Part shown: one piece after another, positions 1,757-10,387 of the stretch
How positions within the stretch are numbered: the first letter of the stretch is position 1
How the letters are laid out: each line of letters begins with the position of its first letter
Assembly (NCBI GenBank): GCA_001464065.1
Contig: LNDN01000168.1
Span: forward strand, 1 to 33,988
Direction: 5' to 3'
Length of the DNA stretch: 33,988 nucleotides
DNA from: Acidobacteria bacterium Ga0077522
GTDB taxonomy: Bacteria; Acidobacteriota; Vicinamibacteria; Vicinamibacterales; Vicinamibacteraceae
Translations under genes and position numbers: made by a program
Notes under the pieces: model-generated
Database searches by the model: none
What the model was told of the DNA's origin: nothing
The model's input: only the letters and a program-made list of their open reading frames with translations

Positions 1757-2591
<835 letters not shown>

Positions 2592-2595
<4 letters not shown>

Positions 2596-3500
2596 GCGGA
2601 CGCGGTCTCCGCCAGCAGTCCCAGCTCGAGGGCGATGCGGCGCAGGCTCTGAAGGGTGCCGCTCGTCGGGGCGACCAGCGGCAGGCGATAGACGGGCTCG
2701 AGCAATCCGGCCAGCGCCATGACGGCCTTGACGGGGCCGGGGTTGGATTCGAGGAAGTTGGCCTGCAGCAGCGGCAGCAGCCGCTCGTGGATCAGCCGGG
2801 CCGCGGCGAAATCCCCGCGCTCGCAGGCCTCGACCATGCGCGCCATGTCGGCCGGCACCTCGTTGCCGGCCACCGAGATGACGCCCTCGCCGCCGAGCGC
2901 CATCATCGGCAGCGTCAGCGTGTCGTCGCCCGACAGCACGAGGAACTCCGCCGGCACGCGACGCCGCACGTCGGCCATCTGGAACACGTTGCCCGACGCC
3001 TCCTTGATGCCGATGATCTGCGGCACCTGCGCCAGCCGCTCGGTGGTCGCCGGCTCGATGTTGCTGCCGGTGCGACCGGGCACGTTGTACAGCATGATCG
3101 GCAGGTTGGTGTTGGCGGCAATCGACGCGTAGTGCTGGAAGATGCCCTCCTGCGTCGGCTTGCTGTAGTACGGCGACACCGAGAGGATGCCGGTGGCGCC
3201 GGCATCGGCCGCCGCGTGGGCCCCCTCGATCACCTCCGCCGTGTTGTAGCCACCGGCACCCGCGAGCACGGGCACCACGCCCTTGACCTCGTCCACGACC
3301 AGCTCGATGACCAGCCGCTTCTCGGCCGGCGAGAGCGTCGGCGCCTCGCCCGTGGTGCCGACCGGCACGAGGAAATGCATGCCGGCCTCGACCTGCCGGC
3401 GGGCCAGGCGACGCACCGCCGCCTCGTCGACGCGGCCGTTCGCAGTGAAGGGCGTGACGAGGGCGGTGCCACAGCCGGTGAAGGGGCGTCGTGAGGTCAT
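2592..3500 (-). CDS. dapA: 4-hydroxy-tetrahydrodipicolinate synthase
   Basis: 302-residue class I aldolase-type TIM barrel condensing pyruvate with aspartate semialdehyde. Key residues are visible: Thr49-Thr50 in PVGTTGEAPTL, Tyr138 in MLYNVPGRTG and the Schiff-base Lys166 in IIGIKEASGN. I chose the ATG at 3500 because the open frame upstream only translates a heptameric tandem repeat into a Ser-Arg-Phe-Pro string. There is no Shine-Dalgarno sequence; instead TATCCT lies 7 nt before the ATG, suggesting an extra leaderless promoter inside the operon. It is separated from dapB by about 105 bp holding a hairpin and the repeat, the only real gap in the operon, and its stop overlaps dapD by 4 bp. 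Confidence 0.96.
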
Positions 3501-3507
3501 GGGGTCA

Positions 3508-3513
3508 AGGATA
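3508..3513 (-). promoter_or_regulatory. Candidate -10 element for dapA (TATCCT)
   Basis: TATCCT ends exactly 7 nt upstream of the dapA ATG with no Shine-Dalgarno between them, the arrangement of a leaderless promoter. No convincing -35 is present because the upstream DNA is the heptamer repeat. If used, it would uncouple dapA, dapD, dapE and the LOG gene from the attenuator ahead of asd. Confidence 0.35.
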
Positions 3514-3514
3514 C

Positions 3515-3560
3515 CGGGAGTCGGGAATCGGGAGTCGGGAACCGGGAACCGGGAACCGGG
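3515..3560. repeat. Heptameric tandem repeat CGGGA(A/G)(T/C)
   Basis: Six and a half copies of a 7-bp unit (CGGGAGT, CGGGAAT, CGGGAGT, then three CGGGAAC and a partial) in the dapB-dapA spacer. The same unit occurs in the opposite orientation at 27374-27401. It is an intergenic low-complexity array; function is unknown. Confidence 0.9.
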
Positions 3561-3573
3561 CAATTGGGGGTAG

Positions 3574-3594
3574 GGCCCGCTCTCCGAGCGGGCC
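3574..3594 (-). other. Intra-operon hairpin after dapB
   Basis: Perfect 8-bp stem GGCCCGCT/AGCGGGCC with a 5-nt loop, 12 bp downstream of the dapB stop. In the direction of transcription no T-run follows (CTACCCCC), so it is not a canonical intrinsic terminator. It may mark a processing site or partial attenuation between dapB and dapA. Confidence 0.5.
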
Positions 3595-3605
3595 GTCACC
3601 GTGCT

Positions 3606-4301
3606 TCAGGGCGACGGCACCATCCCCAGCACGTCGCGCATCGAGTACCACCCCGTGCGCCCGTGCACCCACCGCGCCGCGCGCAGGGCGCCGTGGGCGA
3701 AGGTCGCACGATCGCGGACGGTGTGGGTCAGGGTGACCGTCTCGGCCGGGCCATCGAATCCGGCGCTGTGGGTGCCGGGGATGTGCCCGGCGCGGGTCGA
3801 CGACACATCGACGTGCCGGGTCAGCCCCGCCTCGCGCATCGCCTCGAGCAACAGCAGGGCCGTGCCCGACGGCGCATCGCGCTTCTTCGAGTGGTGAGCC
3901 TCATGCAGGAAGGTCTCGTAGTCGTCGAGCCCCTCGACGGCCGCGCTCACCACCCGCACAGCCGCCTCCAGCAGGTACGCACCCACCGAGAAGTTCGAGG
4001 CGACGACGGCGCCGGCCCCGTGGCGGGCGATGAGCGCCCTCGCCTCGGGCTCGAACGCCGCCCACCCGGTGCTGCCGAGAACCAGCGTCGGTGCGATCGT
4101 GCACAGACGATCGAGGCTCGCCTGCAGCGCGTCTCCCGTCGCGAAGTCGATGACGACGTCGGCGCCGGCCTGGGCCGCCGCGTCCCACTCCTCGGCCGTG
4201 CTGCGACTCGAGATCACCCCGACGACCTCCACGCCATGGTCGGCGGCGTGCAGCCCGACCAGGCGGCCCATGCGGCCATGCCCGAACAGCACCGCACGCA
4301 T
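3606..4301 (-). CDS. dapB: 4-hydroxy-tetrahydrodipicolinate reductase
   Basis: 231-residue NAD(P)H-dependent reductase producing tetrahydrodipicolinate. The N-terminal dinucleotide motif GHGRMGRLV (about 7-15) and the diagnostic active-site segment EAHHSKKRDAPSGTA (His136/His137, Lys140) are intact. It is shorter than the E. coli enzyme (273), mainly in the nucleotide domain, as in other compact DapB proteins. The ATG at 4301 is chosen because it overlaps the lysC stop by one base (TGATG); a longer open frame upstream is Arg/Ala-rich shadow translation of lysC. A hairpin and repeat follow its stop. Confidence 0.95.
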   Translation of the reverse strand: MRAVLFGHGRMGRLVGLHAADHGVEVVGVISSRSTAEEWDAAAQAGADVVIDFATGDALQASLDRLCTIAPTLVLGSTGWAAFEPEARALIARHGAGAVVASNFSVGAYLLEAAVRVVSAAVEGLDDYETFLHEAHHSKKRDAPSGTALLLLEAMREAGLTRHVDVSSTRAGHIPGTHSAGFDGPAETVTLTHTVRDRATFAHGALRAARWVHGRTGWYSMRDVLGMVPSP

Positions 4302-5686
4302 CAGGCGCCGACTCCGGCCGGTTCGGCCTCGAGACAGAAGCGCTCGTGGACGCGCGCCATCGCCGCCTGCAGATGCGCCTGCGGCAACACCACGGTGAGG
4401 TTCCGGCGGGCGCCGGCCTGCGACACCATCCGCAGCGGGAACTCGTCGAGGGCGCCGAGCACGCGGGCGGCGAGCCCGGGCTCGAGCCGCAGGCGCTCGC
4501 CCACCGCGCACAGCAGCGCCATCTCGGTCTCGACGCCGACCTCGGCGAACGCCGACAGGTCGCGCACGATGTCGTCGATGGCCCGCCGATCCTCGATGGT
4601 GATCGAGACGCTGACCTCCGACGTCGTGATGACGTCCACGGAGGTCCGGTAGCGCTCGAACACCTCGAACACGCGACGCATGAACCCGTAGGCCGCCAGC
4701 ATCATCGTCGAGCGGATGTCGATGACGGTGATGTCGCGCTTGCAGGCGAGGCCCGTCAGCGGCGCCTCGGGAAGCGGCGGCGCGGCGGTGATCGTCGTGC
4801 CGGGCACCTCGGGCCGATGCGAGTTGAGAATCTTGACCGGGATGCCGTCGGCCACCGCCGGGGCGATGGTGCTCGGGTGCAGGACCTTGGCCCCGAAGTA
4901 GGCCAGTTCGGACGCCTCGGCGAACGACAGCGACGGCAGCGGGCGGGCGCCGTGCACCACCCGCGGGTCGGCCGTGAGCATGCCGTCGACGTCGGTCCAG
5001 ATCTGGATCTCCGCGGCGCGCAGGCCAGCACCGAACAACGAGGCCGAGTAGTCGGATCCGCCGCGCCCGAGCGTGGTCGTGACGCCACTCGCGGTGGCGC
5101 CGATGAAGCCGCCGAGTACGACCACCGTGCCGGCCGTGACCAGCGGACGGACCCGTTCGTGCAGCCGCGCTGCCGTCGACGCCAGGTCGGGCTGCGCCAG
5201 CCCGTGATCGGCACTCGTGACGAGCACCTCACGCGCATCCACGCAGCGCGCCGGGGTGCCGAGTGCCGTCAGGGCGGCCGCGACGAGGTGTGAACTCGCC
5301 AGTTCCCCCATCGCGACGACCGCGTCGCGTGACCGCGGCGACACCTCGCGCAGGACGGCCATCGCGTGCAGCAGGGCGGCCGTCTCGCGCCACTGTCGCT
5401 CGAGCAGGTCGATGACCTCGTCGCGCTCCACACTGGGACCGAGCAGGGCCTCGGCCGCGACGCGATGCCGATCGCGCATCACGGTGACCTTCTGCGAGGC
5501 CAGGTCCGCATCGCCGCGCTCGACCGCCGCCACGGCGTCGAGCAGTTGATCCGTGATCCCCGACATGGCGGAAACCACCACCACGGGCACGCCGCTGATG
5601 CCCTGCTCGCGCGCGACGATGCGGGCGAGGCGCCGGATGGCGTCGGGATCCTTGACCGAGGTGCCGCCGAACTTCATCACGACCAT
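4301..5686 (-). CDS. lysC: Aspartate kinase
   Basis: Monofunctional aspartokinase of 461 residues, the first committed step of the aspartate family. The N-terminal MKFGGTSV nucleotide motif, the aspartate/ATP-site segment GRGGSDYSAS and a C-terminal pair of ACT domains (for example the stretch with TSEVSVSIT) are present, so feedback inhibition by lysine and/or threonine is expected from the family; which effector cannot be read from the sequence. Three starts are possible: GTG 5695, ATG 5692 and ATG 5686. I prefer 5686 because GAGG lies 8 nt upstream and the kinase core begins immediately. The asd stop is about 10 bp upstream and the dapB start overlaps the stop. Confidence 0.95.
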   Translation of the reverse strand: MVVMKFGGTSVKDPDAIRRLARIVAREQGISGVPVVVVSAMSGITDQLLDAVAAVERGDADLASQKVTVMRDRHRVAAEALLGPSVERDEVIDLLERQWRETAALLHAMAVLREVSPRSRDAVVAMGELASSHLVAAALTALGTPARCVDAREVLVTSADHGLAQPDLASTAARLHERVRPLVTAGTVVVLGGFIGATASGVTTTLGRGGSDYSASLFGAGLRAAEIQIWTDVDGMLTADPRVVHGARPLPSLSFAEASELAYFGAKVLHPSTIAPAVADGIPVKILNSHRPEVPGTTITAAPPLPEAPLTGLACKRDITVIDIRSTMMLAAYGFMRRVFEVFERYRTSVDVITTSEVSVSITIEDRRAIDDIVRDLSAFAEVGVETEMALLCAVGERLRLEPGLAARVLGALDEFPLRMVSQAGARRNLTVVLPQAHLQAAMARVHERFCLEAEPAGVGA

Positions 5687-5696
5687 GGCCATCACC

Positions 5697-6743
5697 TCAG
5701 AGCAGGCCTTGCGCCTGCATCAGCTCGGCGTTCAGCAGCGCGGCGCCGGCCGCGCCACGGACGGTGTTGTGCCCGAGCGCGACGAACTTGTGCTGCAGCA
5801 CCGGGCAGGGACGCAGACGGCCGAGGAACACCGCCATGCCGTTGTCGCGCTCGACGTCGAGTCGTGGCTGGGGACGATTCTCGGCCTCGAGATAGACGAG
5901 CGGACGGGCCGGCGCGAACGGCAGGCCGAGGTCCTGGGGCAGGCCGCGGAAGGCGTCGAACGCGGCGCGGATGTCGGCCGCGTCGACCGTGCGGTCGAAG
6001 TCCACCGAGATCATCTCCGAGTGGCCGTCGATGACCGGCACGCGGGTGGTGTGCGCGCTGACGATCACCGGGTGGGGCTCGACGTGATCGGCGGCGAGAC
6101 GACCGAGGATCTTCTGCGGCTCGATCTCGAGCTTCTCCTCTTCGCCGCCGATGAACGGCACGATGTTGCCCAGGATGTCGAGCGAGGGCACGCCGGGATA
6201 CCCGGCGCCGGAAACGGCCTGCAGCGTCACGACGTTGCACTTCGTCAGGCCGAAGGCCCGCAACGGCGCCAGCGCCATGGCGAGGAACATCGTCGAGCAG
6301 TTCGAGTTGGTGACGATGCCGCCTTTCCAGCCGTAGGCGGCGTGCTGCTGCTGGAGCAGCTGCAGGTGATCCGGGTTGATCTCGGGGATGAGCAGCGGCA
6401 CCAGCGGATCCATCCGGTGGTTGCGCGCGTTGCTCACCACCAGGTGTCCGGCTTCGGCGAAGGCCCGCTCGAGGTCGCCGGCGACATTGGCGTCGAGGGC
6501 GGAGAACACCAGCTTCGGGCCGACCCCGGGCACGGGGGTCTGCACGACGCGCGCCGCTGCGGCCTCGGGCATCGGCGTCGACAACTTCCAGTTCGCCGCG
6601 TCCGCATACGTGCGGCCCGCGGAACGCTCGCTGCCCGCGAGCCAGGTGGCATCGAACCAGGGGTGGTTGGCGAGCAACCGCACGAACTGCTGGCCCACCG
6701 TGCCGGTGGCGCCGAGCACGCCCACTTCTACTCGAGACGACAT
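5697..6743 (-). CDS. asd: Aspartate-semialdehyde dehydrogenase, archaeal/fungal type
   Basis: 348 residues reducing aspartyl-4-phosphate to aspartate semialdehyde. N-terminal GATGTVGQQF binds NADP; the catalytic cysteine is Cys149 in TNSNCSTM; the later segment SGAGYPGVPSLDILGNIVPF with a following Glu-rich EEEKLE stretch is typical of the archaeal/fungal class (TIGR00978) rather than the E. coli class. The ATG at 6743 has a GAGGA ribosome-binding site 6 nt upstream. The open frame continues upstream through the terminator to 6971, but that extension is leader DNA. It is the first structural gene of the operon and sits directly behind the attenuator hairpin at 6774-6806. Confidence 0.94.
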   Translation of the reverse strand: MSSRVEVGVLGATGTVGQQFVRLLANHPWFDATWLAGSERSAGRTYADAANWKLSTPMPEAAAARVVQTPVPGVGPKLVFSALDANVAGDLERAFAEAGHLVVSNARNHRMDPLVPLLIPEINPDHLQLLQQQHAAYGWKGGIVTNSNCSTMFLAMALAPLRAFGLTKCNVVTLQAVSGAGYPGVPSLDILGNIVPFIGGEEEKLEIEPQKILGRLAADHVEPHPVIVSAHTTRVPVIDGHSEMISVDFDRTVDAADIRAAFDAFRGLPQDLGLPFAPARPLVYLEAENRPQPRLDVERDNGMAVFLGRLRPCPVLQHKFVALGHNTVRGAAGAALLNAELMQAQGLL

Positions 6744-6773
6744 CGAATCCTCGTTTCGTCCGCCCTGCACGAC

Positions 6774-6806
6774 AAAACCCGCCTGCGCGGGTCGCGCGGC
6801 GGGTTT
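6774..6806 (-). terminator. Attenuator terminator hairpin in front of asd
   Basis: Outer 9-bp stem (6775-6783 with 6798-6806, AAACCCGCC/GGCGGGTTT), a single unpaired base, then an inner 5-bp stem GCGCG/CGCGC (6785-6789 with 6793-6797) closing a 3-nt loop. On the minus strand it ends in TTTTGTCGT. It lies between a 28-codon Thr/Ile-rich leader ORF and asd. The inner-stem strand 6785-6792 is also exactly complementary (8 nt) to leader segment 6868-6875, a possible antiterminator pairing. Confidence 0.8.
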
Positions 6807-6847
6807 CTTGTGGTGCACGTACGCTGGTGAAGAGTGAGCTGTTGTGC

Positions 6848-6934
6848 TCAGGACGCGTACACGAGCCACCCGCGCGCGGAGTCGAGCTCCCGCTTTCGAG
6901 TGGTCACGGTAATGATGATGGTGCTGCGCGTCAC
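6848..6934 (-). CDS. Thr/Ile-rich leader peptide of the asd-lysC-dap operon (thrL-like)
   Basis: Short ORF of 28 codons (GTG start, TGA stop) ending 41 bp before the attenuator hairpin. Residues 2-12 read TRSTIIITVTT: four Thr, three consecutive Ile and one Val near the start, comparable with the E. coli thr leader peptide, where stalling at Thr/Ile codons controls termination. Thr and Ile are end products of the aspartate pathway made from the asd product, so the content matches the operon. A -10-like TACTCT ends 7 nt before the GTG and there is no Shine-Dalgarno, so the peptide would be translated from a leaderless transcript. A second frame over the same DNA reads HHHH, but it has only a TTG start that coincides with the -35. 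No homolog search was possible. Confidence 0.7.
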   Translation of the reverse strand: MTRSTIIITVTTRKRELDSARGWLVYAS

Positions 6935-6941
6935 GGCCAAC

Positions 6942-6971
6942 AGAGTAGACCCCCGCCGAGGTGTCTGGCAA
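6942..6971 (-). promoter_or_regulatory. Promoter of the leader peptide/asd operon
   Basis: -35 TTGCCA (6966-6971, five of six to TTGACA), an 18-nt spacer and -10 TACTCT (6942-6947). Predicted transcription would start at or next to the leader GTG at 6934, seven bases downstream. It is divergent from the SRPBCC gene, whose ATG is only 64 bp away. Confidence 0.6.
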
Positions 6972-6985
6972 GAGTGGGCGCGTGT

Positions 6986-6991
6986 CATACT
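6986..6991 (+). promoter_or_regulatory. Candidate -10 element of the SRPBCC gene (CATACT)
   Basis: CATACT (four of six to TATAAT) ends 6 nt before the ATG at 6998; no Shine-Dalgarno is visible. Its -35 region would overlap the -35 of the divergent asd leader promoter. The -35 itself is poor, so this is weak. Confidence 0.3.
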
Positions 6992-6997
6992 CCGCAC

Positions 6998-7483
6998 ATG
7001 TGGCGCAGCGCGCCCTCGGATCCCGCCTCCTTCGACTGCGTCGTGGAGATCTCGGCCCCGCCCGAGACGGTCTTCGAGGCCTTCTTCACCCGTGACGTGC
7101 TGCAGGCCTGGTGGGAGGCCGCGACGTCCATCACCACGCCGCGTCCCCTCGGCGTCTACGCGGTGGAATGGCCGAGGTCGACCATGGAGGACCCGCTGCT
7201 GGGCCCCCTGGGCGGCGCGTTCTACGGCCTGGTCATCGACGTCCGGCCTGGCCGCGAGTTCTTCCTGGCCGACGCGTACTGGATGCCCCCCGAGGGCGAC
7301 CCGATCGGCCCGATGGCCCTGCAGGTCACCTGTGACCCCACGCCCACCGGCACGCGCCTGCGCTTCCAGCAGAGCGGTTGCGACGACAGCCCCCGGTGGC
7401 GGCGGTTCTACCGCGTCCTCGGTGCCCAATGGGTCGAGGCTCTCGGCCGCCTGAAGACGCAGCTGGAGTCCGCGTCGACCTGA
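6998..7483 (+). CDS. SRPBCC/AHSA1-like domain protein
   Basis: 161-residue single-domain protein with the START/Bet v1-like (AHSA1/SRPBCC) pattern: an early VVEISAPPETVFEAFFT segment (strand plus helix), an AWWEA motif and a long C-terminal amphipathic helix (RFYRVLGAQWVEALGRLKTQL). Such proteins fold around a hydrophobic cavity; ligands differ and none can be named here. No catalytic residues are identifiable. The ATG at 6998 is chosen because homologous-looking sequence starts shortly after it and a -10-like element precedes it; longer upstream starts would read through the divergent asd promoter. It is monocistronic, and its stop codon lies inside the first copy of a 20-bp palindrome. Confidence 0.85.
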   Translation: MWRSAPSDPASFDCVVEISAPPETVFEAFFTRDVLQAWWEAATSITTPRPLGVYAVEWPRSTMEDPLLGPLGGAFYGLVIDVRPGREFFLADAYWMPPEGDPIGPMALQVTCDPTPTGTRLRFQQSGCDDSPRWRRFYRVLGAQWVEALGRLKTQLESAST

Positions 7484-7492
7484 AGGTCGACG
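7473..7492. repeat. 20-bp palindromic repeat, copy 1
   Basis: CGTCGACCTGAAGGTCGACG: 9-bp arms CGTCGACCT/AGGTCGACG around two bases. It contains the TGA stop of the SRPBCC gene. Identical cores occur at 7540-7559 (opposite orientation) and 11454-11473. Confidence 0.85.
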
Positions 7493-7534
7493 CCTACGCC
7501 TTCGACGCCTGCCGTGCCTTCACGTTCGATACAC

Positions 7535-7562
7535 GTAGCCGTCGACCTTCAGGTCGACGGTC
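7535..7562. repeat. Palindromic repeat, copy 2 (28-bp version)
   Basis: The same 20-bp core in inverted orientation relative to copy 1, extended so that 28 bp are identical (reverse complement) to 11451-11478. With copy 1 it brackets a 47-bp spacer between two convergent genes and could act as a bidirectional hairpin. Confidence 0.85.
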
Positions 7563-7578
7563 GGCGTCAGGGCGTCGA

Positions 7579-8997
7579 TCAGCCGACGCGGCGGATGCGC
7601 AGGAAGTTGGCGTCGATGCGCGTCAGGTCGGCGTTGATGCTGACGAAGACGATCGGCTCGCCCGCGCGCAGCACGCCCTGCTCCACGAGGTGCCGCTCGA
7701 CCTCGATGCCGTTGTGGTTGTCGATCAGCGCCGTGTCGATGGCGATGGGCTCGATGCCGCGATGCAGCATCAGGCGGCGCGCCACCCGCTCGTCCGACGT
7801 CACGGCGTAGATCGGTATCGACGGGCGCAGCGCCGACAGCACGCGCGCCGTCTTGCCCTCGCGGGTCACGGCGACGATGGCCTCGGCGTTGCCCGCATGG
7901 GCGAGCGTCACCGCCGCCTCGCACAGCGCGCGATTGTGCGGCACGCCCAGCACGCCGGCATTGAAGGTGGCCCGCGGCCGCGGGTTCAGACTCTCGGCGT
8001 CACGGATGACGGCATCGAGCAGCTTGACCGCCGCCACCGGATACTGCCCGCTCGCGGTCTCGCCGGACAGCATCACGGCATCGACCGAGTCGTCGGCGGC
8101 GTTGGCGGCGTCGCTGACCTCGGCACGGGTCGGCCGCGGGTTGGTGCGCATCGACTCCAGCACCTGGGTGGCGACGATCACCGGGATGCCGGCGCGCTGC
8201 GCCAGCTGGGTGATCACCTTCTGGGCGCGGGGCACGCTGTGCAGCGGCACCTCGTTGCCGAGATCACCGCGCGCCACCATCACGCCGTCGCAGGCACCGA
8301 GCAGCGACTCGAGGTTGACCACCGCCTGCGGACGCTCGATCTTGGCGATGAGGCTCGTCGACTCGGCGCCAGCCGCACGCAGCGCGGCGCGCGTCCGATG
8401 CAGGTCGTCGACCGTCTGCACGAAGCTGAGCGCCACCATGTCGACGCCGATCGAGGCCCCGAACTGGAGGTCGACGATGTCCTTGTCGGTGAGAGCCGAG
8501 GCCGGCAGCTCGACGTCGGGCGCGTTGATGCCCTTGTGCTGGGCCAGTGTCCCGCCGACCAGCACGGTCGTCTCGATGGTCGTCCCATCGGTGCCCTCGA
8601 CGCGCAGTTCCAGGGCACCGTCATCCAGCAGCAGGCGCATGCCGGGGCCGACGGACTTCGCCAGGCCGGCAAACGTCGTGTAGACGTGCCCCTCGACCCC
8701 TTCTTCGTCGCCCGTCGTGATGCGCAGGCGGGAGCCGGCCGGCAGCGGGATGGGCACGCCGCCGACCAGGCGGCCGGTGCGAATCTTGGGCCCGCTCAAG
8801 TCCTGCAGGATCGCCACCTGGCGGCACGCGGCGGCGGCCGCGTCGCGCACCAGCCGCAGCGATTCGGCGTGTTGCTCGTGGCTGCCGTGCGAGAAATTCA
8901 GGCGGAAGATGTCGACCCCGGCAGCGATCAGGGCAGGAACGCCCTCGGGCGTGGCGCTCGACGGACCGAGCGTGGCGATGATGCGGGTCTGGCGCAT
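7579..8997 (-). CDS. pyk: Pyruvate kinase
   Basis: 472-residue glycolytic enzyme converting phosphoenolpyruvate and ADP to pyruvate and ATP. The protein starts TRIIATLGPSS, followed by RLNFSHGSHEQH, the B-domain, the catalytic IAKIERPQAV lysine segment, MVARGDLGNEVP and the ATQVLESM region, then a C-terminal allosteric domain from about residue 350. All core motifs are intact and the length is typical. It is convergent with the SRPBCC gene and divergent from the amidase gene; a -10-like TAGACT (9021-9026, minus) overlaps the amidase candidate -10 on the other strand. No operon partner is evident. Confidence 0.96.
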   Translation of the reverse strand: MRQTRIIATLGPSSATPEGVPALIAAGVDIFRLNFSHGSHEQHAESLRLVRDAAAAACRQVAILQDLSGPKIRTGRLVGGVPIPLPAGSRLRITTGDEEGVEGHVYTTFAGLAKSVGPGMRLLLDDGALELRVEGTDGTTIETTVLVGGTLAQHKGINAPDVELPASALTDKDIVDLQFGASIGVDMVALSFVQTVDDLHRTRAALRAAGAESTSLIAKIERPQAVVNLESLLGACDGVMVARGDLGNEVPLHSVPRAQKVITQLAQRAGIPVIVATQVLESMRTNPRPTRAEVSDAANAADDSVDAVMLSGETASGQYPVAAVKLLDAVIRDAESLNPRPRATFNAGVLGVPHNRALCEAAVTLAHAGNAEAIVAVTREGKTARVLSALRPSIPIYAVTSDERVARRLMLHRGIEPIAIDTALIDNHNGIEVERHLVEQGVLRAGEPIVFVSINADLTRIDANFLRIRRVG

Positions 8998-9049
8998 AGG
9001 GCGAAGGGGACCTCAAGGGCAGTCTACCTTCATGCGATGCTGTCCACAC

Positions 9050-10387
9050 ATGTCGCTTCGTGACACCGCCCGTGACCTGCGCGCCGGCACCGTGCGCGCC
9101 CGTGACCTGGTCGAGGAGGCGATCGCCTGCATCGACCGCTGGCAGCCGGCCACCAACGCCTTCATCGAGGTCGACGTCGCCGAGGCCCGCTACATGGCCG
9201 ATGTCGCCGACAACGAACGGCGCCGGGGCATCGACCGGGGCCTGCTGCACGGCGTGCCGGTGTCGCTCAAGGACCTGCTCGACCAACAGGGCCATGTCAC
9301 CACCGCCGGATCACGGTCGATGACGACCGTGGCGGCCGCAGACGCCCCGGCCGTCGCCCACCTGCGGGCCCACGGCGCGGTGTTCCTCGGCCGCACCAAC
9401 ATGCACGAGTTCGCGATGGGCACGACCAGCGAGGACTCCGGCTTCGGCCCGGTCCGCCATCACCGCGATCCCGGACATTCGGCGGGTGGGTCCAGCGGCG
9501 GGTCGGCGGTGGCCGTGGCCACGGGCATGAGCCATGTGTCGATTGGCTCCGACACGGGCGGCTCGGTGCGCATCCCCTCGGCCGCCTGCGGCCTGGTCGG
9601 ACTCAAGCCGGCCTGGGGCGAGGTGTCACTGACCGGCGTCGTGCCGCTCAGCCCCACCGTGGACTGCGTCGGGCCGCTCGCGCGAGGCGTGGAAGACGCC
9701 TGGTATACGCTGCAGGCCCTGCGCAGCGACAGCGCCCTGCCGCCCTGCCCTGCGGCGCGTCCGCTGCGTGGGTTGCGCATCGGCGTGCTGCGTGACTTCG
9801 GCTGGCGGGCCGTGATGCCCGATATCGGCGCCTGCGTCGCCGACCGGCTCGACGCCCTCGCTGCCGGCGGTGCCTCCCTGCAGGACATGCCGCTGGTCAC
9901 GGCCCCGCTCGTCATCCCGGCGTACGGCACCCTCGTGATCCGCGAGGCCCTCGACTTTCACGCGCCTCGCCTGTCGGCGCACGCCGATCGCTACACGCCG
10001 GCCGTCCGCGGACGCCTGCAGACCGCCGCGCGCCCCTCCGACGACGACTACGCCCGCGCGCACGAGGCCCGCGTGTCGATCGAGGCCGATGTCGCCGGGT
10101 TGCTCACAGCGGTCGACGTCCTGGCGCTGCCCGGGCTCGCCATCACGCCGCCGCCGCTCGGGCAGACCCATGTGATGTGGCCGCACGGCGAGGAACTCAC
10201 GCGGATGGCCATGCTCCGCCTCACCCAGCCCTTCAACCTCTCGCGGCATCCGGCCATCGTCCTGCCCGTCGGCACGACTGCCGAGGGCTGGTCGATCAGC
10301 CTGCAGCTGGTGGGGCGCGACACGCCCTCGCTGGTGGCGGTGGCGCTGGGCATCGAAGCGGCGCTGGGGGGCGCGACGTTCGGGTGA
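9050..10387 (+). CDS. Amidase signature family protein (GatA-like)
   Basis: 445-residue amidase with a complete Ser-cisSer-Lys triad: Lys74 in VSLKDLLD, Ser148 in GHSAGGSSGGSA and Ser172 in GSDTGGSVRIPSA, with spacings close to those of GatA. It is shorter than GatA (about 485) and no gatB or gatC is adjacent, so a stand-alone amidase acting on small amides is more likely than the Glu-tRNA amidotransferase subunit; substrate unknown. I chose ATG 9050; an in-frame ATG at 9032 would add six residues. A candidate -10 (TACCTT, 9025-9030) overlaps the divergent pyk promoter. The stop is followed 15 bp later by the next gene on the same strand. Confidence 0.88.
   Translation: MSLRDTARDLRAGTVRARDLVEEAIACIDRWQPATNAFIEVDVAEARYMADVADNERRRGIDRGLLHGVPVSLKDLLDQQGHVTTAGSRSMTTVAAADAPAVAHLRAHGAVFLGRTNMHEFAMGTTSEDSGFGPVRHHRDPGHSAGGSSGGSAVAVATGMSHVSIGSDTGGSVRIPSAACGLVGLKPAWGEVSLTGVVPLSPTVDCVGPLARGVEDAWYTLQALRSDSALPPCPAARPLRGLRIGVLRDFGWRAVMPDIGACVADRLDALAAGGASLQDMPLVTAPLVIPAYGTLVIREALDFHAPRLSAHADRYTPAVRGRLQTAARPSDDDYARAHEARVSIEADVAGLLTAVDVLALPGLAITPPPLGQTHVMWPHGEELTRMAMLRLTQPFNLSRHPAIVLPVGTTAEGWSISLQLVGRDTPSLVAVALGIEAALGGATFG

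Follow-up and report, generated by a model that had tools for sequence, protein, structure and literature searches.

A probable ribosome-mediated transcription attenuator with threonine and lysine control codons upstream of an asd-lysC-dap operon

The asd-lysC-dap operon on the minus strand of the window (the whole stretch of 33,988 nucleotides analysed here) is very probably controlled by a ribosome-mediated transcription attenuator, which we regard as the best explanation of the region preceding asd. There is good support for attenuation through a translated leader. The ORF, the terminator, the alternative pairing and their conservation are read from sequence, and the codon-dependent switch is a prediction of RNA folding. 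We infer that there is a promoter, that the leader is translated, that the genes are transcribed together and that the system responds to amino acids. In the proposed mechanism, RNA polymerase would start just upstream of the GTG of a short leader ORF, which is probably translated from leaderless or nearly leaderless RNA. When charged tRNAs are plentiful, the ribosome would reach the stop codon and region 2 of the leader would be covered or paired with region 1; with region 2 unavailable, the terminator (region 3 with region 4) would form and transcription would end before asd. When Thr-tRNA or Lys-tRNA is short, the ribosome would pause at Thr11–Lys14 and mask region 1; region 2 would then pair with region 3, and the operon would be transcribed.

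The gene order on the minus strand is asd-lysC-dapB-dapA-dapD-dapE. The gene for aspartate-semialdehyde dehydrogenase, asd (5697–6743, NCBIfam TIGR00978, above cut-off), starts at 6743 and is preceded by GAGGA. The aspartokinase gene lysC (4301–5695) scores barely above the cut-off of the lysine-sensitive aspartokinase 3 model (NF006570, 455.1 versus 455 bits). dapA (2592–3512, TIGR00674) and dapD (1744–2595, NF008808) match above cut-off. The dapB reading frame (3606–4511), with the true start inside it, reaches 117.1 bits with TIGR00036, below the cut-off of 122, and the dapE-like deacylase (731–1756) reaches 124.7 bits with TIGR01910, below the cut-off of 217.6. A divergent ORF on the plus strand (6998–7480; no NCBIfam match) adjoins the asd promoter.

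The putative promoter comprises a -35 element, TTGCCA (6966–6971), and a -10 element, TACTCT (6942–6947, 7 nt before the GTG), both read directly on the minus strand and separated by 18 nt. The leader ORF (VTRSTIIITVTTRKRELDSARGWLVYAS, 6848–6934, minus strand) has 28 codons, runs from GTG to TGA and has orthologues in relatives. Codons 2–12 encode the Thr/Ile-rich run TRSTIIITVTT (6899–6931). A count of 8 Thr plus Ile in 11 residues is unusual: among the window's 261 short ORFs the leader ORF alone reaches it, and shuffling the window with a Markov model gave a single such ORF out of 28,707. Region 1 (CCACTCGAAAGCGGGAG, 6887–6903) is able to pair with region 2 (CCGCGCGCGGGTGGCT, 6864–6879), the 5′ strand of the antiterminator, and this 1:2 hairpin is present in the MFE fold. 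Region 2b (GTGTACGCG, 6854–6862) can extend the antiterminator via 6810–6824 (73% complementary, and seen in folds). The terminator (6806–6775, minus strand) is formed by region 3 (GAAACCCGCCGCGCG, 6793–6807) as the 5′ strand and region 4 (CGCGCAGGCGGGTT, 6776–6789) as the 3′ strand, with the T run read directly at 6774–6777. Its outer stem has 9 bp (6806–6798 with 6783–6775) and its inner stem 5 bp (6797–6793 with 6789–6785); one A is bulged, and TTTTG stands after the hairpin. The promoter motifs, the ORF with its run, the hairpin, TTTTG and asd with GAGGA all lie where the first-pass annotation had placed them. That annotation had also proposed a possible antiterminator between 6785–6792 and 6868–6875. 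The complementarity is exact, but 6785–6792 is the terminator loop plus the inner 3′ strand. A better antiterminator pairs the leader (6879–6864) with the terminator 5′ strand (6807–6793) at -22.5 kcal/mol, with p 0.010 for the duplex against 200 shuffles. A generic promoter scanner called no promoter within 5500–9500, and the one terminator called by a generic scanner was the same hairpin on the plus strand, with none on the minus strand.

Three further genus genomes could be read, and all of them keep the ORF and the terminator; in a fifth genus genome (G002) the sequence stops within the leader, and its fragments were left out. TTGCCA with 18-nt spacing recurs in two of the three, and the third has TTGCAA. 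The ATG of the leaders in G001 and G003 is located further downstream of the -10 element. The run contains 8, 9, 8, and 8 Thr/Ile residues in the four genus genomes (window included), and the codons after it differ by two synonymous changes only.

The codon dependence is a prediction from folds in which the RNA was masked as far as 13 nt beyond each A-site codon. For a transcript that stops at the base of the stem, stalls at Thr11, Thr12, Arg13, Lys14, and Arg15 (6890–6904, minus strand) in the window gave an antiterminator probability (P) of 0.74–0.82. Across the four genus genomes, stalls at these predicted switch codons (numbered one lower in G003) gave pairing of region 3 with region 2 at P 0.74–0.84, with 0.80–0.84 for the stall at Lys. 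P was ≤0.03 in these genomes for stalls at codons 1–7 or at codon 17 and beyond, for a ribosome that had reached the stop codon and for RNA free of ribosomes; stalls at codons 8–10 and 16 were intermediate (0.04–0.72). A 3-nt change in the position of the ribosome edge displaces the range of switch codons by one codon. When 2–4 nt of the T run are added, P for the five switch codons is 0.21–0.84 in the four genomes. For the window's own genome, it is 0.21–0.67 at this length and 0.01–0.29 with the full tail, where the terminator wins. Stalls at Ile6–8 in the window's genome gave P ≤0.10 at equilibrium; in G004, the stall at Ile8 gave 0.68 at the stem base, 0.14 two nucleotides further and 0.06 four nucleotides further. 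As stalls at Thr and Lys switch the RNA and stalls at Ile hardly do, Thr and Lys are the predicted signals and Ile a weak one; for the window's genome, the model thus predicts a response to Thr plus Lys, not to Thr/Ile. The first-pass annotation had described a Thr/Ile-responsive attenuator. Attenuation and Thr survive this analysis; Ile becomes a weak signal, because stalls at Ile6–8 hardly switch the RNA. A device responding to Thr and Ile only, with the Lys codon incidental, would resemble E. coli thrL, a Thr/Ile leader, and would fit the 8–9 Thr/Ile codons kept in residues 2–12 of the four genomes despite changes between Thr and Ile. We nevertheless consider it unlikely, given that the stall at Lys14 switches the window RNA at equilibrium and that the Ile8 effect in G004 fades as the RNA lengthens.

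Conservation was followed across the class. The codes f1, f2 and so on denote families in the genome sample; f1–f13 are taken to make up the order (Vicinamibacterales), and f17 lies outside it. Asd was detected (E ≤ 1e-50) in 123 of 193 class genomes, and the upstream DNA of 108 asd loci was read. Of these loci, 77 belong to f1–f13, 76 of them assessable (L028 is masked by N); L098 was left out, the Asd motif not having been found. A short ORF behind a -10 box, with a terminator before asd, is present at 66 of the 76 assessable loci (65 genomes). The leader was not found at the other ten (four in f2, four in f13, one each in f3 and f6), and none was seen before asd in 10 loci of f16 and f19. 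G120 (L131) has a checked asd-lysC-dapA-dapD-dapE operon with a terminator before asd; the leader ORF was not found there, and TATAAT lies directly before the terminator. In f14/f15, asd directly follows lysC, as seen in four completely read operons and by eye in the others. A set of 80 loci, 79 of which were scanned (one was too short), showed a strong terminator with a short ORF only in L188, L197, and L200, which correspond to order members already counted. The scan misses weaker terminators, as in L193, L196, and L201, members with a leader, and the absence of the leader elsewhere is therefore not proven. Of the 66 leaders, 38 have exactly TATACT as their -10 box, and in 44 the start codon, assigned by hand in 12 of the 66, lies 9–11 nt behind the box. 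With the start codon so close behind the -10 box, the leader RNA is probably leaderless or nearly so, and the same would probably apply to the window transcript, judging from its sequence.

The pairing potential between leader and terminator extends beyond the genus. The duplex of the ORF with the terminator 5′ arm was scored for each leader against 200 dinucleotide shuffles; these z and p statistics, which include two mis-parsed terminators (L076 and L093, corrected for the swap, 1:2 and folding analyses), give a mean z of -1.62 and p ≤0.05 in 29 of 66 leaders, where about 3 would be expected. Significant duplexes are found in the window's genus (4/4), f1g2 (2/2), f2 (4/4), f10 (3/3), f12 (4/7), and f3 (9/23); none reached significance in f13 (0/17), f8 (0/2), and f11 (0/1). 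The terminator arm varies between families, and the leader varies along with it. Native leader–arm pairs have a mean of -19.2 kcal/mol versus -16.3 (sd 0.35) for randomly re-paired ones, and no permutation out of 5000 equalled the native pairing. When each of 11 families was represented by a single leader, none of 2000 draws gave swapped pairs that matched the native ones. The first-pass annotation had looked to an alignment of relatives, and there the leader is indeed conserved, with leader and terminator arms co-varying. A 1:2 protector hairpin has p ≤0.05 in 14 of the 66 leaders, including 8 of the 23 from f3 and 0 of 4 in the window's genus. As long as region 4 has yet to be transcribed, the P of the antiterminator exceeds 0.5 in 55 of the 66 leaders; with region 4 present, the equilibrium P does so in only 10. 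Equilibrium thus favours the completed terminator in most families, and the switch there would rest on co-transcriptional timing, that is, be kinetic.

The terminator is the most uniform element across the leader loci, and several genomes have no leader. A constitutive partial terminator without regulation would account for both, yet neither the covariation of leader and arm nor a codon content matched to the operon (see below) is expected of it, and we regard this explanation as hardly credible. In consensus folds made with RNAalifold, two-sided base changes were seen at no pair of the f3 alignment and at only three of the f13 alignment, all within the terminator. A single RNA consensus fails because of alternative helices and indels, and the per-sequence duplex and swap tests were therefore used. 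The family alignments gave no consensus aptamer either. This bears on a structured RNA element or riboswitch, in which the ORF would be a by-product of conserved pairing. Lysine riboswitches do hold the same position in f17, but the leader region has no Rfam family at the gathering score, and a relaxed Rfam scan returned seven sub-threshold matches, none of them an amino-acid leader or a lysine riboswitch (one, a xanthine riboswitch, scored 16 versus 36 bits). The ORF shows synonymous changes and Thr/Ile swaps, and its start codon stands mostly at a fixed distance from the -10 box. A structured RNA is extremely unlikely on these grounds, and a translated leader is preferred.

The codons of the leader follow the content of the operon, where a checked dap operon is one with dapA near asd on the same strand. 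Lys is present in 62 of the 66 leaders (Lys-Arg in 61), in all 32 on checked dap operons and in none of the four on met operons (three of f10, one of f4). Met makes up 1.5% of leader residues on dap operons versus 14.9% on met operons (p 0.00025). Among the leader residues across the order, Thr is frequent and Ile makes up about 3%. The sequences thus point to Lys, not Ile, as the conserved control codon among relatives; the signal first proposed, Thr/Ile, was too narrow, and the near constancy of Lys adds to the case against an incidental Lys codon. The Lys codon nearest to region 2 on its 5′ side stands a median of 11 nt away (7–19 nt in 50 of 62), so that a ribosome stalled there would just leave region 2 free. 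Order-wide, codon content would tune the device to the product, with Lys (often with Thr) on dap operons and Met on met operons. The met operons read asd-lysC-hom-metY-metX in two genomes, asd-lysC-metY-metX in G083 and asd-lysC-hom-metX in G093; the lysC of G096 was matched in part only, and dapA, dapD, and dapE were not found near asd in any of the four. Their leaders, such as MARPTDSTPAAAMRMMAMRMTGIGG, are Met-rich in three and less so in G083 (2 Met). No Lys-type leader was found within up to 1.5 kb before the distant dapA homologues of f10/f4 (5 loci). G098 (L126) and G074 (L176) have the leader and dap genes, and lysC was not found between asd and dapA.

Arg accounts for 18% of the residues in the 66 leaders, and CGA/CGG codons often flank the Lys codon (R-K-R). 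The enrichment possibly reflects pausing, pairing or another signal. Motifs of the type TRKR-VTRVGGVVLER recur in f3 and, with the strong enrichment in Arg, would suit a nascent-chain arrest peptide, in which R-K-R...V-G-G stalls the ribosome on binding of a metabolite and not through codon hunger. However, f10 has Met codons in place of the Lys-Arg motif with the architecture kept, and the f12 peptides differ yet are Lys-rich. VGG is encoded where the pairing strand lies, and its conservation can be explained at the RNA level. An arrest peptide is accordingly very unlikely, and codon-dependent attenuation remains the preferred reading.

In f14/f15, the operon is hom-thrC-lysC-asd with an ornithine cyclodeaminase-like gene between thrC and lysC (four read whole); in L134, this gene (TIGR00300) spans 2328–3587. 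A separate leader, for example MTQTRGTTATMMTPTVVMSITTTATPMRARHCRMM, is located upstream of hom (L139, L138, L135, and others). In 13 of the 14 loci that could be read, the terminator arm CCATCATCC is a possible pairing partner for the end of this leader (such as GGATGATGTAG). These hom leaders contain Thr and Met, and their terminator and antiterminator arms are nearly invariant. Mean Thr is 21% in 12 hom-thrC leaders versus 13% in dap leaders, and mean Lys is 0.8% versus 8.6%; the starts of all 12 were picked by eye, G160 (ambiguous start) and G180 (without the motif) are not counted, and G175 and G178 are not Thr-rich. At gathering score, Rfam gave no amino-acid regulatory family in seven Thr-type loci. 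The separate dapA of f15 (3 loci) showed no Lys-type leader in the upstream DNA, of which up to 1.5 kb was covered. On the Asd tree, where genomes without a checked operon were labelled ‘dap’ by assumption, one change suffices for the met group (4 rows) and one for the thr group (8 rows); the match of codons to operon therefore represents two evolutionary events, not sixteen.

We lean slightly towards a single history for these devices, in which one ancestral attenuator was re-coded in place as operons were rewired, with Lys/Thr codons for lysine synthesis on asd-lysC operons, Met codons for asd-lysC-hom-metYX and a separate Thr-rich device on hom-thrC-lysC-asd. The leader of the window's genus would then be a two-input sensor (shortage of Thr or of Lys), an RNA counterpart of the concerted feedback on aspartokinase, at the position that a lysine riboswitch holds in f17. 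If so, it would be a natural experiment in which the control codons of an orthologous switch were replaced in step with the operon product, and a riboswitch and a leader peptide at one position before the same genes would make a clean case.

Among the closest known systems is the thr operon leader of Enterobacteria (thrL, RF00506), which likewise has a short Thr/Ile-rich ORF, a terminator, alternative pairing and an operon of the aspartate family. The present leader differs in its operon (asd-lysC-dap, not thrABC), its conserved Lys codon, its start right behind the -10 box and its phylum. The Rfam threonine-leader model, named in the first-pass annotation as a search to make, has no match in the window; across 119 class genomes, none matches above cut-off, and G109 has two matches below it. 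The trp, his, leu, ilv, and phe attenuators share the logic of 1:2, 2:3, and 3:4 pairing with control codons matching the operon product; to our knowledge, none of these leader peptides uses Lys or Met control codons. Mycobacteria have leaderless polycysteine leader ORFs with control codons, which are similar in that the present leader, too, is probably leaderless or nearly so, and differ in amino acid (Cys), genes and phylum.

The lysine riboswitch (L-box, RF00168) has no match in the window's own genome. It was found in 2 of 149 sampled class genomes, both of f17 and directly before asd, in a search with stricter filters that may lose weak matches; a sample of the phylum gave matches in 31 of 297 genomes, with 30 above cut-off. 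In G023 (f17), the genes after the riboswitch include asd, lysC, dapA, and dapD. The leader would sense tRNA charging, whereas the riboswitch senses the metabolite. In the accessible part of a survey of Actinobacteria, no conserved RNA elements are reported there before Thr, Lys, and Met operons, and Lys and Met operons are described as being under riboswitches in other species (PMC1262725). The available portions of PMC1262725, PMC2965389, PMC4833913, and PMC1183508 do not describe the element, and no published description of an asd-lysC-dap leader element was found in a search that left out most subscription literature. The class of mechanism is old; what was not found in print is its use of Lys and Met codons, its occurrence in this phylum, a start that is nearly leaderless and the change of codons along with operon content.

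No second leader before hom was seen by eye at six loci of the window's family. A terminator-like block (CCAGTACGCACGTCCCTCC...GGACGACTCGCACCCGTCCGGCCCCTTTTT), which does not occur in the 330 nt covered upstream of hom in G004, is conserved upstream of hom in L158 (G000), L162 (G001), and L160 (G003), and CATTCGATAACATCATTCTATTTCC is conserved upstream of this block.
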